From NCBI GenBank assembly GCA_946479925.1, contig CAMLHK010000005.1, positions 23,255 to 87,254 on the forward strand: a stretch of DNA of 64,000 nucleotides, given 5' to 3'. The notes beneath the pieces are model-generated. The model did not search any database, had not been told where the DNA came from, and was given only the letters and a program-made list of their open reading frames with translations. Origin of the DNA: an uncultured Lactobacillus sp. (GTDB lineage: Bacteria > Bacillota > Bacilli > Lactobacillales > Lactobacillaceae). Below are positions 19,881 to 27,377 of this stretch, one piece after another. Both the position numbers and the translations under genes were made by a program. The first letter of the stretch is position 1. Every line of letters begins with the position of its first letter.

Positions 19881-20852
19881 TTATTTAGGGGCTTTAATGG
19901 AATTAGGATCAATTCCAAGTGCCTTAGCCATCTTTTTGTTAACAACTAATTGTAATTTTTCTGCTTTTTCAACTGGCATATCAGCAGGTTTAGCTTTACC
20001 ATCTAAAATTTTAGCGGCCATTTTTCCTGTTTGTTCGCCAAGTGATTCATAGTCGATACCGATTGAAGCTAAACCACCAGTTTTAACTTGGTCAGTTGAG
20101 CCGGCAACCAACGGAATTTTCTTTTCTTTAACAACTTTACCAATGATTGAAGCAGCTGAAGCAAAAGTATTGTCAGTTGGAACATAGATGCCTTGAACTT
20201 TTCCTGCCAAAGTTTCAGTTACTTGTTGAACGTCATTAGTTGTATTAGCTGTTTTAACTACTACTTTTACACCAGCTTTTTTAAGAGCCTTGATTGCTAA
20301 ATCTGCCTGAATCTTTGAATTTGATTCACCAGCATTGTACATAACACCAATTGTTTTAGCTTTTGGAACAATTGATAAAAGCAATTTAATTTGCTTGTCA
20401 ATTGAAACCATGTCGGTTGTACCAGTAATATTTCTGCCTGGTTTTGCGTTTGAATCAACTAACTTAGCAGCTTTTAAATCCGTTACGGCAGTGACAACTA
20501 CTGGGATATCTTGAGTTGAGTTAGCCACACTTTGTGCTGCTGGAGTTGCTATTCCAAGAATTAAGTCTGACTTCTCGTTCACAAGTTTTTCACTCATACT
20601 CTTTAAGTTGTCTTGACTATTTTGAGCGTTTTGGTAGTCAATCTTAAGGTTTTTACCTTCAACGTAACCACCTTTTTTTAGACCCTTTTTAAATCCAGCA
20701 TATGCTTTGTCAAGGGATGGGTGCTGTACAACTTGCAAAATCCCCACATGCTTAACTTCTGAACTGTTATCAGCTTTTTTATTATTGCTGCATCCACCCA
20801 ATAAGAGTAATCCGGCTAAACTTAGCCCTGCCATTAATTTTTTGATCTGCAT
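19881..20852 (-). CDS. Substrate-binding lipoprotein of the importer (ABC_sub_bind, copy 1)
   Basis: A 323-residue lipoprotein. The signal peptide MQIKKLMAGLSLAGLLLLGG ends at lipobox Cys in LLGGC. The periplasmic-binding fold of the ABC_sub_bind family follows (VGILQVVQHPSLD, GTTDMVSIDKQIKLL, YVPTDNTF, GGLASIGIDYESLG). I start at ATG 20852 because the earlier in-frame ATG at 20867 overlaps the GGAGG ribosome binding site itself. It is the first gene of the operon with permease and ATPase, and sits directly behind a transcription attenuator. It is closely similar to copy 2 at 21255. Confidence 0.9.
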   Translation of the reverse strand: MQIKKLMAGLSLAGLLLLGGCSNNKKADNSSEVKHVGILQVVQHPSLDKAYAGFKKGLKKGGYVEGKNLKIDYQNAQNSQDNLKSMSEKLVNEKSDLILGIATPAAQSVANSTQDIPVVVTAVTDLKAAKLVDSNAKPGRNITGTTDMVSIDKQIKLLLSIVPKAKTIGVMYNAGESNSKIQADLAIKALKKAGVKVVVKTANTTNDVQQVTETLAGKVQGIYVPTDNTFASAASIIGKVVKEKKIPLVAGSTDQVKTGGLASIGIDYESLGEQTGKMAAKILDGKAKPADMPVEKAEKLQLVVNKKMAKALGIDPNSIKAPK

Positions 20853-20867
20853 TTTGCAATCCTCCAT

Positions 20868-20899
20868 AAAAAAATACCCACTTACTTCTAAGTGGGTAT
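20868..20899 (-). terminator. Attenuator terminator 1, before the importer operon
   Basis: A perfect 11-bp stem ATACCCACTTA / TAAGTGGGTAT with a 4-nt loop, followed on the minus strand by T7 and immediately by ATGGAGGA (the lipoprotein ribosome binding site). It lies inside the transcript leader, after the leader peptide, so it works as an attenuator rather than as an end-of-gene terminator. Confidence 0.85.
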
Positions 20900-20934
20900 C
20901 ACAAAAATTATTTTGTAATTTTAATAGTTGCGCC

Positions 20935-21064
20935 TAGCCACTTAAAAGTTATGTGGCTAACCGTAAACAAATCGCTCTAGCCATCATAGATAAACTCAAA
21001 CTTGCGTTTTGTTTGAACTCACCTTGATGAATTCAAACACTATCTAAAGTAGCTAAAGTAATAA
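20935..21064 (-). promoter_or_regulatory. Attenuator RNA 1 with alternative pairings
   Basis: Minus-strand segments in order: A (leader codons, 21040-21060), hairpin H1 (21011-21038, GTTTGAA / TTCAAAC), B (20975-20994, with TATCTATGATGGCTAG), C (20953-20960, TTAGCCAC), D (20935-20945, TTAAGTGGCTA), then terminator arms E (ACCCACTTA) and F. A pairs with B, C with D and E with F (off state). Alternatively B pairs with C (TGGCTA / TAGCCA) and D with E (TAAGTGG / CCACTTA), which leaves F unpaired (on state). Stalling of a ribosome on segment A would select the on state. Structures are read by eye, not computed. Confidence 0.7.
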
Positions 21065-21099
21065 CGGTTATTCAGTTGTGAATTTTGACAAATATTCAT
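21040..21099 (-). CDS. Tyr/Phe-rich leader peptide 1
   Basis: A 19-residue frame, MNICQNSQLNNRYYFSYFR, preceded by GGAGG at a good distance and located between the promoter at 21129-21157 and the attenuator. Its end has three Tyr and two Phe codons in seven positions (RYYFSYFR). The same codons form RNA segment A. The second copy upstream of the paralogous lipoprotein keeps NNRYY.SY.R, which argues for selection on the peptide. Confidence 0.75.
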   Translation of the reverse strand: MNICQNSQLNNRYYFSYFR

Positions 21100-21128
21100 T
21101 ATCAAATACCTCCAACCTTGATGAAAAA

Positions 21129-21157
21129 ATTATAGGAAAAAAAGAAGAAAAAGTCAA
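21129..21157 (-). promoter_or_regulatory. Promoter of the importer operon
   Basis: On the minus strand: -35 TTGACT (21152-21157), 17-base spacer, -10 TATAAT (21129-21134). About 25-30 bases before the leader peptide start. Confidence 0.75.
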
Positions 21158-21209
21158 GTTTTGTAATAGTTGTATCTGGAAAAAGGGAAGGAGGATGTTT
21201 TAGTCGAAT

Positions 21210-21235
21210 AAAAAAGGTCGCTGATATCAGCGGCC
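21210..21235 (-). terminator. Terminator of lipoprotein copy 2
   Basis: GGCCGCTGAT / ATCAGCGACC on the minus strand followed by T6. It separates the copy 2 transcript from the leader of the importer operon. Confidence 0.85.
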
Positions 21236-21254
21236 AGAATTACATTTCTTACAG

Positions 21255-22226
21255 TTATTTAGGTGCTTTGATTGACTTGGGATCAATTCCAAGCGCCTTA
21301 GCCATTTTCTTGTTGACAACTAACTTCATGTCATGAGCTTTCTCAACCGGCATGTCAGCTGGCTTAGCTTTACCAGCTAAAATCTTAGCTGCCATTTTCC
21401 CAGTTTGTTCGCCAAGTAATTCGTAATCAATTCCGATTGAAGCAAGTCCACCAGTTTTAACTTGATCAACTGAACTTGCCACTAGCGGCACTTTCTTTTC
21501 TTTAACAACTTTACCAACAACGTCTGCAGCGGAATCGAAAGTATTGTCGGTAGGAACGAAAATACCGTCAACCTTTGAAGCTAAAGTTTCAGTTACTTGC
21601 TGAACATCGTTAGTTGAATTAGCTGTCTTAATTAAAACTTTGACTCCTGCTTTTTTAAGGGCAGCTGTGGCTAAATCTGCTTGAATTTTTGAATTTGACT
21701 CACCAGCATTGTACATAATACCGATTGTTTTAGCTTTAGGTACAATTGATAGAAGCAGCTTAATTTGTCTCTCGATTGAAACCATGTCAGTGGTCCCAGT
21801 AACGTTTTTCCCAGGCTTAGCATCCGATTTAACTAGCTTAGCTGCCTTTAAGTCGGTGACTGCGGTAACTACAATTGGGATATCTTGACTAGCATTTGCC
21901 AAACTTTGAGCAGCAGGAGTTGCAATACCAAGCATTAAATCGGATTTCTCATTAACCAATTTTTCACTCATACTCTTCAGATTATCTTGATTATTCTGTG
22001 CATTCTGGTAATCAATCTTAAGGTTTTTACCTTCGACATAGCCTTCTTCCTTTAACCCTTTTTTAAAGCCCTTGTATGCTTTGTCTAAAGAAGGGTGTTG
22101 AACGACTTGTAAAACACCAACGTGTTTTACGTCTGAATCATTATCAGCTTTTTTATTATTGCTGCAGCCTCCTAATAATAGTAATCCAGCTAAACTTAAT
22201 CCTGCCATTAATTTTTTGATTTGCAT
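21255..22226 (-). CDS. Substrate-binding lipoprotein, stand-alone copy 2
   Basis: A 323-residue lipoprotein of the same length as copy 1 and near-identical in most segments (signal peptide, lipobox LLGGC, VVQHPSLDKAY, GTTDMVSIERQIKLL, GGLASIGIDYELLG). It differs in scattered residues, mostly in the second lobe. It has its own promoter, leader peptide, attenuator and terminator, and no permease or ATPase follows, so it must feed the neighbouring transporter or act alone. The start at ATG 22226 is chosen for the same reason as in copy 1. Tandem duplication is the simplest origin. Confidence 0.9.
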   Translation of the reverse strand: MQIKKLMAGLSLAGLLLLGGCSNNKKADNDSDVKHVGVLQVVQHPSLDKAYKGFKKGLKEEGYVEGKNLKIDYQNAQNNQDNLKSMSEKLVNEKSDLMLGIATPAAQSLANASQDIPIVVTAVTDLKAAKLVKSDAKPGKNVTGTTDMVSIERQIKLLLSIVPKAKTIGIMYNAGESNSKIQADLATAALKKAGVKVLIKTANSTNDVQQVTETLASKVDGIFVPTDNTFDSAADVVGKVVKEKKVPLVASSVDQVKTGGLASIGIDYELLGEQTGKMAAKILAGKAKPADMPVEKAHDMKLVVNKKMAKALGIDPKSIKAPK

Positions 22227-22241
22227 TTTGCAATCCTCCAT

Positions 22242-22272
22242 AAAAAATACCCACTTATTTCTAAGTGGGTAT
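22242..22272 (-). terminator. Attenuator terminator 2, before lipoprotein copy 2
   Basis: A perfect 11-bp stem ATACCCACTTA / TAAGTGGGTAT with a 4-nt loop and T6, directly before ATGGAGGA of the lipoprotein gene. Same design as attenuator 1. Confidence 0.85.
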
Positions 22273-22320
22273 CATTAACTAATCTGTAAATTAATTATTA
22301 GTACTATTTTGCTCTAATAA

Positions 22321-22446
22321 TTAGCCACTTAGAAACCTATGTGACTAATTACACTCAAAAAGCTATAGCCATCATAGATAAATTTAAACTTTTTAGTCTA
22401 AATTCATCTAGATGAACTTAGACCTTATCTATAGTAGCTATAGTAA
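22321..22446 (-). promoter_or_regulatory. Attenuator RNA 2 with alternative pairings
   Basis: Segments on the minus strand: A (leader codons, CTATAGCTACTATAGATAA), hairpin H1 (22392-22421, GTCTAA / TTAGAC arms), B (22363-22381, TTATCTATGATGGCTATAG), C (22341-22348, TTAGTCAC), D (22321-22332, CTAAGTGGCTAA). A:B pairs over about 17 bases. C:D is TTAGTCAC / GTGGCTAA. The alternatives are B:C (TGGCTA / TAGTCA) and D:E (CTAAGTGG / CCACTTAG). Compared with copy 1, H1 arms and the A:B stem change on both sides while pairing is kept. Confidence 0.7.
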
Positions 22447-22484
22447 TAACGGTTATTCTGCTGTAATTGTTGATTAGAAATCAT
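22425..22484 (-). CDS. Tyr-rich leader peptide 2
   Basis: A 19-residue frame, MISNQQLQQNNRYYYSYYR, with GGAGG before the ATG. It has five Tyr codons in its last seven residues. The N-terminal half differs from leader 1 while the NNRYY.SY.R end is kept; the two Phe codons of leader 1 are Tyr codons here. Confidence 0.75.
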   Translation of the reverse strand: MISNQQLQQNNRYYYSYYR

Positions 22485-22513
22485 CAAATTACCTCCAAAC
22501 CTTTAATATGATT

Positions 22514-22542
22514 AGCATAAAGTATTAATAAAAATGTGTCAA
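22514..22542 (-). promoter_or_regulatory. Promoter of leader 2 / lipoprotein copy 2
   Basis: Minus strand: -35 TTGACA (22537-22542), 17-base spacer, -10 TATGCT (22514-22519). Confidence 0.75.
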
Positions 22543-22708: not shown

Positions 22709-23971
22709 ATGACACGATTGCAAAAAATGGTCTTAAAACCGAAAGAGCAGTTAGTTACGCGGCTTTTTTTGTCGCCTAAACTTCAGCAAAACCTAACTGT
22801 TTTATCTTATAGCACCTATGATTTGGTTAGTGCAATGAAGGAATTAAGCGAGAGTAATCCCTTTGTTTCATTGGCTGAACCTAAGAGTGAAACTCATAGC
22901 CTGGAATGGATTGGTGATACTGGGAGTGAAAGCTTGCCCGATCATCTTTTATTGCAGGTAAGGATGAGTGACTGGAGTAATAGGGAAAAGAGTGCTGTTA
23001 AGTTACTAATTTATAATTTGGATGATAATGGATACTTGCGCGCCAAATTAAATGAACTTGCTCAAGCATCAGAATTTTCACTTGCAGATTTGGAGCAAGC
23101 AAAAGTGCTATTGCATAGTTTAGACCCATGTGGGATTGGTGCAAGTAGTCTAAATGAATGTCTGTTAATTCAAGCTTGTCAAAAAGAGAACTTTGATGAA
23201 ACTGCAATGCAAATTTTGCTTTCTGACAGTTTGGAATTACTTGCGGATCCACAAAAATGGGAGCAGTCAGATTTTTCGGCTAGTCAATTAACTCAGGCAC
23301 TAGCTAACATTCAGACACTAGATCCGACACCAGCAGGTGAATATGTGACTGAGCAAAACATTCAATATTTGCTACCTGATTTGATTTTTAAAGTTGAAGT
23401 TGGACGCCTAACAATTGAAACAGCGAAGTCGCAAATTCCCGAATTACTATTTGATGAAAAAACTTACAAGGAATTAAAAACACAATCTGACCAAGGTGAA
23501 TATTTTTCGCAACAACGTCAAGATTATTTAGAAATGAAAAATGCAATAGACCAGCGGCAACAAACTATCCTTCGCTTGGGAAAATATGCTGGTGAATATC
23601 AAAGAGCATTTTTAACTACAATACAAACGCAGGAATTAAAACCTTTAGGTTTAAAAGATGCGGCTAATGCATTGAACTTAGCACCAAGTACGATTAGTAG
23701 GGCAATAAAAGACAAGTACATCCAGTGTCAGAATAAAATTTTTAGTTTAAAAATTCTATTTCCACGCAAAGTTACGACCGATTTATCTCAGGCACGAATT
23801 GAGTATGATTTGCAAAAGTTAATTGACCAAGAAAGTCCTCAGCAGCCGTTAAGTGATCAGCAATTAGTCGAACATTTTGCGGATCACGGTGTTACTTTGA
23901 GCAGGAGGGTAATTGCGAAATATCGTAAAAAACTAAATATTCCCAATAGCTATCAGCGTAAAAGAGACTGA
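22709..23971 (+). CDS. rpoN: RNA polymerase sigma-54 factor RpoN
   Basis: A 420-residue protein. The N-terminal region has LSPKLQQNLTVLSYSTYDL (activator-interacting region I). The core-binding domain contains DPCGIGASSLNECL. The DNA-binding part has an HTH at LGLKDAANALNLAPSTISRAIKD, and an RpoN box near the end reads SRRVIAKYRKKLNI, close to the consensus ARRTVAKYRE. AAGGAG precedes the start. Known: in lactobacilli sigma-54 mainly drives mannose-type PTS operons together with a LevR activator. Neither an activator nor a PTS is in this window. Confidence 0.92.
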   Translation: MTRLQKMVLKPKEQLVTRLFLSPKLQQNLTVLSYSTYDLVSAMKELSESNPFVSLAEPKSETHSLEWIGDTGSESLPDHLLLQVRMSDWSNREKSAVKLLIYNLDDNGYLRAKLNELAQASEFSLADLEQAKVLLHSLDPCGIGASSLNECLLIQACQKENFDETAMQILLSDSLELLADPQKWEQSDFSASQLTQALANIQTLDPTPAGEYVTEQNIQYLLPDLIFKVEVGRLTIETAKSQIPELLFDEKTYKELKTQSDQGEYFSQQRQDYLEMKNAIDQRQQTILRLGKYAGEYQRAFLTTIQTQELKPLGLKDAANALNLAPSTISRAIKDKYIQCQNKIFSLKILFPRKVTTDLSQARIEYDLQKLIDQESPQQPLSDQQLVEHFADHGVTLSRRVIAKYRKKLNIPNSYQRKRD

Positions 23972-26539: not shown

Positions 26540-27377
26540 ATGAGTCAAAAAAAGGATGACTATATATTAGGTCTCGATATCGGGACAAACTCATGTGGTT
26601 GGGCTGCAGCCGACAAGAAAAAAGTTACGTGGTAAAACCGCTATCGGTTCACATTTATTTGAAGAAGGACATTCAGCCGCAGATCGTCGCGGCTTTAGAA
26701 CTCCACGCCGTCGGCTTAAACGAAGAAAATGGCGTTTAGGATTGTTAGAAGAAATTTTTGCGGAGCCAATGGCTGAAGTTGATCCAAGTTTCTTCGTTCG
26801 TCTTCATCAACCATGGGTTTCCCCTTTAGATAAAGATCGGAAAAAGTACGCCGCAATTGTTTTCCCAACTGCCAAAGAAGATGCAAAGTTTTATCAGAAA
26901 TATCCGACAATTTAACATCTGCGTCAAGCTTTAATGACAGAAAATCGCAAATTTGATTTACGTGAGATTTTTTTGGCGATGCACCACATTGTTAAATACC
27001 GTGGCAATTTTTTGCAGGATACTCCTGTCAAAAGCTTTGAAGCTTCAAAAATCGATGTAGCACCAACATTAGAATCAATTAATGCTGCTTTTAACAATAA
27101 AGCTGATGAAGACTGCGAAAAGCTAGAATTAAACTTAAAAAATGCACATGCTATTGAAGAGGTGATAAAGGGTGAGGACCAGGATAAAACGACTTATAAA
27201 AAGGACAAAGTCAAAAAAATCGCGTTATTGTTACCAACCTCTACGGATAAAAATGCAAAAAATGCAGCTAAACAGATTGCTAATGCCATTATGGGCTATA
27301 AAACGTAATTTGAAACTATCCTAGCTAAAGAAATTGATAAAAGCGATAAAGCAAGATGGGAATTGGGAAAGTTTTAG
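26540..27377 (+). pseudogene. cas9: Decayed type II-A cas9 (5' fragment only)
   Basis: AGGAGAAGG precedes ATG 26540, and the frame gives YILGLDIGTNSCGWA, the RuvC-I motif with its Asp, but stops at 26626 after a small deletion. The next frame (from 26595) continues with GKTAIGSHLFEEGHSAADR and the bridge helix RRGFRTPRRRLKRRKWRL, then the start of the REC lobe (DLREIFLAMHHIVKYRGNF). In-frame stops occur at 26914, 27308 and 27375. Only about 280 of an expected 1300-plus residues remain; HNH and PAM-interacting domains are gone. No cas1, cas2, csn2, tracrRNA or repeat array is seen nearby. A relic of a lost CRISPR locus. Confidence 0.9.

Follow-up and report, generated by a model that had tools for sequence, protein, structure and literature searches.

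The enterobacterial his, trp and pheA attenuators each have a short leader peptide with many residues of the amino acid under control, then mutually exclusive hairpins and a terminator before the operon; the his attenuator is a six-segment relay. Among Firmicutes, a leucine-rich leader peptide belongs to the ilv attenuator of Staphylococcus aureus (PMC5794164), and a histidine-rich one has been described in bacilli (PMC2965389). The uORFC-13-1 motif, found before aroF, comprises 24 sequences from Acholeplasma and environmental DNA (PMC8632094). We have analysed a stretch of 64,000 nucleotides from an uncultured Lactobacillus sp. (contig CAMLHK010000005.1, positions 23,255 to 87,254), called the window below, on whose minus strand a leader of about 270 nt precedes each of two genes for TrpX-like lipoproteins. 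According to comparison with related genomes, each leader very probably attenuates transcription by way of the ribosome, responding to charged tRNA-Tyr and, in leader 2, to charged tRNA-Phe as well. Attenuation by tyrosine (Tyr) and phenylalanine (Phe) is the best reading because of the conserved frame of an upstream open reading frame (uORF), its aromatic codons, the exclusive folds and the pathway genes downstream.

The initial annotation of this locus, made from the letters alone, took the element to be undescribed, but it is Rfam family RF02863 (sRNA_2410, Enterococcus sRNA 2410). Leader 2 matches this model with 74.9 bits at 20891..21056 (-), reaching the cut-off of 61, and leader 1 with 59.6 bits (E 1.2e-8) at 22275-22441, just below it. 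The RNA is the same, and the top-scoring relatives precede TrpX-like lipoproteins; it is filed as 'Gene; sRNA'. Since the model begins inside the uORF, it leaves out the leader peptide. A 195-nt RNA of Enterococcus faecium, with two transcripts on Northern blots, was reported in PMC5593968, in whose main text no mention of a leader, attenuation, trpX or an ABC transporter turned up on searching. A literature search, with subscription papers mostly outside its reach, did not turn up any description of leader-peptide attenuation by Tyr/Phe from these bacteria. Aromatic regulation in the low-GC Gram-positives was reportedly studied by Panina and others in 2003, as cited in PMC2494555.

Leader plan and leader peptide

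Both copies have the same plan, as had been noted from the letters: a promoter-like site, GGAGG, a uORF of 19 codons, segments A to F and an intrinsic terminator touching the ribosome binding site (RBS) of the lipoprotein gene. The parts are as follows, SD being the Shine-Dalgarno sequence.

Leader 1
22537..22542 (-), promoter-like -35, TTGACA (consensus scan 10/12)
22514-22519 (-), promoter-like -10, TATGCT (consensus scan, with the -35)
22491-22496 (-), SD, GGAGGT
22425..22484 (-), leader peptide uORF, MISNQQLQQNNRYYYSYYR*, 19 codons, frame kept in relatives
22425..22442 (-), segment A, final five codons and stop
22396..22423 (-), hairpin H1 (H1a 22412-22423, H1b 22396-22407), 12/12 pairs, helix covaries
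22378..22389 (-), segment 4a, alternative partner of H1b, 12/12 pairs
22366..22380 (-), segment B
22338..22348 (-), segment C
22321..22333 (-), segment D, partner of C or E
22246..22273 (-), intrinsic terminator E:F (E 22262-22273, F 22246-22257)

Leader 2
21152..21157 (-), promoter-like -35, TTGACT (consensus scan 11/12)
21129-21134 (-), promoter-like -10, TATAAT (consensus scan, with the -35)
21108-21113 (-), SD, GGAGGT
21040..21099 (-), leader peptide uORF, MNICQNSQLNNRYYFSYFR*, 19 codons
21040..21057 (-), segment A
21011..21038 (-), hairpin H1 (H1a 21027-21038, H1b 21011-21022)
20990..21001 (-), segment 4a, alternative partner of H1b, 12/12 pairs
20978..20992 (-), segment B
20950..20960 (-), segment C
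20935..20945 (-), segment D
20873..20900 (-), intrinsic terminator E:F (E 20889-20900, F 20873-20884)

Between the copies the stems have changed on both sides while pairing was kept: the H1 arms are paired 12/12 in each, and in the alignment the first A:B pair is A-U in leader 1 and U-G in leader 2. A scan of 1.9 kb gave four terminator-like sites against 0.9 in shuffles, and two of the four are the terminators of the two leaders.

Altogether 191 leader loci were read in related genomes, 164 of them distinct (27 repeats). When the uORF was defined strictly, as an ATG reading frame that is preceded by an SD, has no fewer than 14 codons and closes near the homologous stop, it was found in frame 0 at 147/164 distinct loci, in frames 1 and 2 at none and in 6/820 shuffles. 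The initial annotation had named a lack of conservation of the Tyr-rich frame or of the pairings in relatives as one ground for refutation; its reading survived this check, most stems covarying as described below. Counting back from the stop, codons -6, -5, -3 and -2 are Tyr or Phe in 112/112 leaders and codon -7 in 91/112 (near-repeats included); 111 leaders have Ser at codon -4 and one has Gly, and codon -3 is TAT in 70, TAC in 32, TTC in 7 and TTT in 3. A typical peptide ends QLNNYYFSYFR. The cognate codons stand on the 5' arm of the first hairpin or adjoin it, codons -5 to -1 lying inside segment A.

The peptide of leader 1 has five Tyr and no Phe, that of leader 2 three Tyr and two Phe. 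Among 161 peptides, 14 are without Tyr, 4 without Phe, and 5 contain tryptophan (Trp); control by Tyr alone, as first proposed, is therefore amended to control by Tyr/Phe. The five peptides with Trp precede transketolase (2) or aminotransferase (3) genes, and a sixth leader with Trp, L179, likewise stands upstream of a transketolase. A Phe-only leader (L172, under a laxer SD rule) precedes a pheA-like gene, and Tyr and Phe both occur in the leader of the second pheA locus, L099. The stop lies three codons later, within H1a, in L069, L094, L097, L101, L103 and L108 (..SYFRYCL, ..FRSCL). By eye, three loci that were without a reading frame under an earlier rule do have one: L106, whose SD is weak, reads MNKKQAVTMNQNFYFSYFR, and the frames of L056 and L110 run a few codons further to their stop.

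Ahead of the aromatic run, exact QLN occurs in 105/161 peptides, encoded by eleven codon strings (CAACTGAAT 59, CAATTGAAT 25, nine rarer). It sits at about codons -11 to -9 in most leaders, with synonymous codons for Leu and Gln. This conservation, extending to many Trp-type leaders, speaks for nascent-peptide arrest, in which the QLN..FSYFR peptide itself would stall the ribosome, perhaps with Tyr or Phe as a ligand in the tunnel, codon starvation not being the main signal. TnaC, a ligand-in-tunnel arrest peptide, is the model for such a mechanism. We nevertheless consider it improbable, for the C-terminal part varies to a degree hardly tolerable for an arrest peptide (FAFSFFFR, YYYGYFG, YYYFRFFR, FFFSDFR), and in the folding model B:C is favoured by a stall at -7 to -3 rather than by one at the stop codon.

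Exclusive folds and the position of the ribosome

The swap and folding tests drew on those 40 of the 112 leaders that stayed below a limit on similarity, minus L100, which lies on a truncated contig; for the ribosome-masked folding and alignment A2, L095 was also dropped (segments C and D not located). To A2 four close leaders were added and L091 was left out (segment D not located), its row ends being taken from the D:E duplex. The leader loci are not independent events.

The initial annotation had set A:B, C:D and the terminator E:F against B:C and the antiterminator D:E as mutually exclusive, and this is borne out by the swap test and by covariation, for B:C by conserved complementarity. 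In the terminator-side fold (A:B, H1, C:D) 93.7% of the cells of 42 leaders are paired, against 90.1 in shuffled and 31-42 in slid alignments, and 17 pairs carry a double change against 5.5 in shuffles. The antiterminator-side fold (H1, B:C) is paired in 94.2% of the cells of the same leaders; for each of the two folds 0/500 shuffles were as good in the whole-structure measures. Exchanging the partners among 39 leaders gave z values of -11.3 for H1a:H1b, -8.0 for H1b:4a, -4.7 for A:B, -8.3 for D:E and -17.7 for E:F, while the controls gave +0.8, +1.4 and +1.0. B:C stands through conservation, not covariation: 94.9% of its cells are complementary, with a double change in 3/11 pairs. An intrinsic terminator (a hairpin at least as stable as -11 kcal/mol, with T's behind it) is present in 111/112 leaders, the exception being L100 on its truncated contig. 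In the leader of Clostridium sartagoforme segments C, D, E and F differ in sequence and the plan, by eye, is unchanged.

A third fold was recognized, in which H1b, the 3' arm of H1, pairs alternatively with 4a, a strand running into B. In the 42 leaders 91.4% of its cells are paired in the common register, with five double-change pairs. In both window copies it has 12/12 pairs in their own register; the fixed register counts only 6-7 pairs in the leaders labelled W1, W2 and L090, in which 4a is shifted by four nt. In 39/40 leaders H1a starts 2-4 nt past the base with which the homologous stop position begins, and in a few leaders the actual stop falls later than this position.

The following course of events can be proposed. 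With aromatic amino acids in ample supply the ribosome would reach the stop codon and cover H1a, which begins a few nt away; H1b would then be free to pair with 4a, and B would be hidden. After release of the ribosome A:B together with H1 would hide B instead. Either way C:D could form, and then E:F would terminate transcription ahead of the lipoprotein RBS. If Tyr or Phe were scarce, the ribosome would stall while an aromatic codon occupies its A site, codons -7 to -3 being the most favourable; A would be covered and H1 intact, B:C would form, D would be freed to pair with E, and transcription would proceed into the importer genes. The uORF, its codons, the exclusive folds, the terminators and the target genes are given by sequence comparison, and from them we infer the stall itself, the ribosome footprint, the kinetics and the starvation response.

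For the partition functions the ribosome was represented by a mask of 16 nt counted from the first base in the P site, a distance that was assumed, and F was treated as not yet made; they describe equilibrium only. Over 38 leaders the mean number of B:C pairs was 0.80 without a ribosome, 6.4-7.5 with the A site at -7 to -4 (7.46 at -4), 5.8 at -3, 3.0 at -2 and 2.22 at the stop. H1b:4a rose from 1.42 pairs without a ribosome to 4.21 at -4 and 10.94 at the stop, and D:E had 3.8, 8.55 and 5.71 pairs respectively. By these counts the fold that would free D is at its maximum over the stretch that holds most aromatic codons.

Several observations weigh against the attenuation reading. In the same modelling D:E drops from -4 to the stop only from 8.55 to 5.71. 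When the two window leaders were folded, as the initial annotation had proposed, each agreed with the model in one half only: leader 1 in D:E (3.4 pairs without a ribosome, 5.7 at -5, 1.4 at the stop) and leader 2 in B:C (0.0, 5.2 and 1.5). In leader 2 D:E is flat, at 4.8 to 5.2 pairs; in leader 1 B:C does not exceed 1.2 pairs for A-site positions -8 to -3 and yet has 3.95 at the stop, contrary to expectation, because H1b:4a wins at every ribosome position tested. B:C hardly covaries at all (swap z -1.8, 92/2000 permutations as good). The strict uORF rule failed at 17/164 distinct loci, and the A:B stem may account for part of the conservation of codons -5 to -1. Stalling by starvation would not need the conserved QLN. 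Promoter-like sites are not in excess by count (7 against a shuffle mean of 7.0 in the same scan), so that the promoters of both leaders are read from position and near-consensus sequence. Finally, the element is patchy in the genus of the window, where 3/15 genomes have it.

Genes behind the leaders and their distribution

The reading frames downstream point to aromatic metabolism. At 187/191 loci (27 repeats among them) the first reading frame of at least 120 amino acids, about 110-750 nt away, falls in a cluster for aromatic transport or synthesis. Among the 161 distinct loci with a peptide the first downstream cluster is ABC_sub_bind in 106, aroE in 34, an aminotransferase in 6, DAHP synthase in 4, pheA (prephenate dehydratase) in 2, transketolase in 2, a major facilitator superfamily (MFS) transporter with chorismate mutase in 2, aroC in 1 and others in 4. 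For each named cluster the identity of one representative was checked against Pfam and NCBIfam, the two window proteins standing for ABC_sub_bind. In L182 the leader is upstream of a gene that joins an MFS transporter (PF07690) to a chorismate mutase domain (PF01817); L186 and L187 cluster with L182. A sodium symporter follows the leader of L225. Leaders also stand before proteins not known for aromatics, namely PTS_EIIC_2 in L189, a protein of 1011 amino acids in L070 and a BrnQ-like carrier, not aromatic by name, in L214; going by their leaders, the sequences suggest that these may handle Phe or Tyr.

The Rfam name implies a trans-acting small RNA to which the downstream genes would be mere neighbours. 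The named RNA of E. faecium with its two Northern transcripts (PMC5593968) agrees with this, but a terminated leader would resemble a small RNA on a blot, the 3' terminator of the RNA can be pre-empted by its own segment D, and at 187/191 loci the first reading frame belongs to an aromatic cluster; we give this explanation very little credence.

The genes behind the window leaders are these:

21255..22226 (-), lipoprotein 1, TrpX-like substrate-binding protein, PF04392 285.5 bits, NF041285 345 bits
21219..21232 (-), terminator-like site 3' of lipoprotein 1 (terminator scan)
19881..20852 (-), lipoprotein 2, TrpX-like substrate-binding protein, PF04392 288.6 bits, NF041285 337 bits
18933..19850 (-), ABC (ATP-binding cassette) permease, PF02653
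18152..18955 (-), ABC ATPase, PF00005

They form two units with one leader each: that of lipoprotein 1 closes with its own terminator-like site (21232-21219), and that of lipoprotein 2 runs on into the permease and the ATPase. The mechanically called starts of the lipoprotein frames, 22241 and 20867, overlap the RBS, and the SD-preceded starts are 22226 and 20852. An RpoN sigma-54 gene (TIGR02395, window 22709-23971) is divergent from the leader 1 promoter. Two neighbouring reading frames at window 26595-27308 resemble what we take to be pieces of a Cas9 gene.

Neither lipoprotein reaches the 390-bit cut-off of the TrpX equivalog NF041285. For both, the nearest solved structures are 6HNI (CD0873), then 3LFT and then 3LKV, which bind Tyr, Trp and Phe respectively; the preference is set by two residues of CD0873, namely Tyr-279, to which Gln-284 of the Trp binder corresponds, and Glu-263, for which the others have Ala (PMC6816091). 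Both window proteins have Tyr at the 279 position and Ser, not Glu, at the 263 position. In 125 leader-linked loci (repeats included) the 279 position is Tyr in 122 and Phe in 3, and the 263 position is Ser in 104, Ala in 10, Asp in 8, Val in 2 and Glu in 1. By their residues the leader-linked binding proteins appear to be of the Tyr/Phe type, and Ser at 263 does not set Tyr apart from Phe; the transport of aromatic amino acids predicted earlier agrees with the 279 position.

When 18 genomes were searched with PF04392, 28 places came out, spread over 16 of these genomes, 13 of the Tyr/Phe type and 15 of the Gln type by the 279 residue; two Gln-type places are one fused reading frame, hence 14 loci. 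A leader match lies upstream of 13/13 Tyr/Phe-type and 0/14 Gln-type loci in these genomes. These loci represent two paralog types, therefore not 27 independent events.

RF02863 matches at E <= 0.001 were found in 215/395 Lactobacillales genomes and 52/80 genera, and in 0/14 control genomes; 99/395 Lactobacillales genomes have one above the cut-off. Our own model R1, built from 42 leaders, matched in 78/251 genomes of the family (15/40 genera), in 35/398 of the class (12/145 genera) and in 4/398 of the phylum, one of these four being outside the class. This last locus, L308 (G1281), is a weak match (E 3.1e-6) after a short reading frame containing Phe, and the gene downstream resembles, by eye, the L225 symporter. 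The exact core pattern occurs in at least 118 stretches; among the matches listed (80/118) are Enterococcus, Vagococcus, Tetragenococcus, Aerococcus, Alkalibacterium, Atopococcus and Aliicoccus, Lactobacillus helsingborgensis, melliventris, bombicola and huangpiensis, as well as Terrisporobacter mayombei and Clostridium sartagoforme. Several genomes of the family (G757, G778, G795, G811 with three, G164, G222, G330, G849, G095) carry leader matches in tandem, spaced by about 1.3-2.4 kb, which recall the doubled lipoprotein of the window. A manA-II match over leader 2, with 25.7 bits against a cut-off of 100, was rejected as chance.

A probable tryptophan counterpart and the known systems

The 14 Gln-type loci are preceded as follows: four by T-boxes, two by the trpB motif RF04312 at cut-off and three by RF04312 below it, and five by neither, apart from a fragmentary T-box match in one. 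The trpB motif, found most often before an uncharacterised ABC transporter, was published as a strong riboswitch candidate, and its authors did not rule out a classic attenuator (PMC11109978). By eye it has the same plan as the Tyr/Phe leaders, its P1 resembling their H1b:4a stem. An SD-preceded uORF containing Trp ends at most 60 nt before the motif in 30/33 trpB-motif loci, several of them close relatives, against 12/660 shuffles; the three misses are the three loci from outside the order. These uORFs end in WQSWRR, WQNWRR and the like, and many share QLN (QLNNAWQSWRR). On account of them the trpB motif is read as the Trp sister of the leader. RF04312 also hits Tyr/Phe leaders, eight times and always below cut-off; together with the Trp uORFs these matches make RF02863 and RF04312 look like branches of one superfamily.

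An accidental uORF on a metabolite- or tRNA-binding riboswitch (a T-box or an orphan aptamer) might be argued from the T-boxes of the four Gln-type paralogs and of Streptococcus suis trpX (PMC9382623) and from the candidacy of the trpB motif, but with the frame and codons of the uORF conserved, Trp codons present in Trp-type leaders and no T-box (RF00230) match at cut-off in the window or in the 20 leader loci tested, this is most unlikely.

It is rather probable that RF02863 (Tyr/Phe) and RF04312 (Trp) form one Firmicutes superfamily of leader-peptide attenuators reaching into Clostridia, with a QLN-aromatic-R peptide, a three-way switch at H1b and a match between codons and binding pocket. 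As a switch, H1b would distinguish a ribosome stalled on aromatic codons from one at the stop; the match would join Tyr/Phe codons with Tyr or Phe at 279, and Trp codons or T-boxes with Gln. If this is true, lactic acid bacteria would exert a sizeable share of their control over Phe/Tyr genes by classical attenuation, through an element entered in Rfam as a small RNA, and the riboswitch candidate already published might work without a ligand. The leader codons could furthermore predict the cargo of ABC_sub_bind transporters where the nearest NCBIfam model says tryptophan, and the sensing of aromatic amino acids in these bacteria would become testable with short constructs.

Compared with the enterobacterial his, trp and pheA attenuators, the peptide, hairpins and terminator follow the same plan, and the six-segment relay is not as unusual as the initial annotation had held, the his attenuator being drawn likewise. 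The leaders described here differ in the phylum, in the Tyr/Phe specificity and in the extra fold that could sense a ribosome at the stop. The S. aureus ilv (PMC5794164) and bacilli His (PMC2965389) leaders are likewise leader-peptide attenuators of Firmicutes but, by description, other RNAs before other genes. The uORFC-13-1 motif also has a predicted uORF with Phe codons before a DAHP synthase gene, and by its description another structure (PMC8632094).

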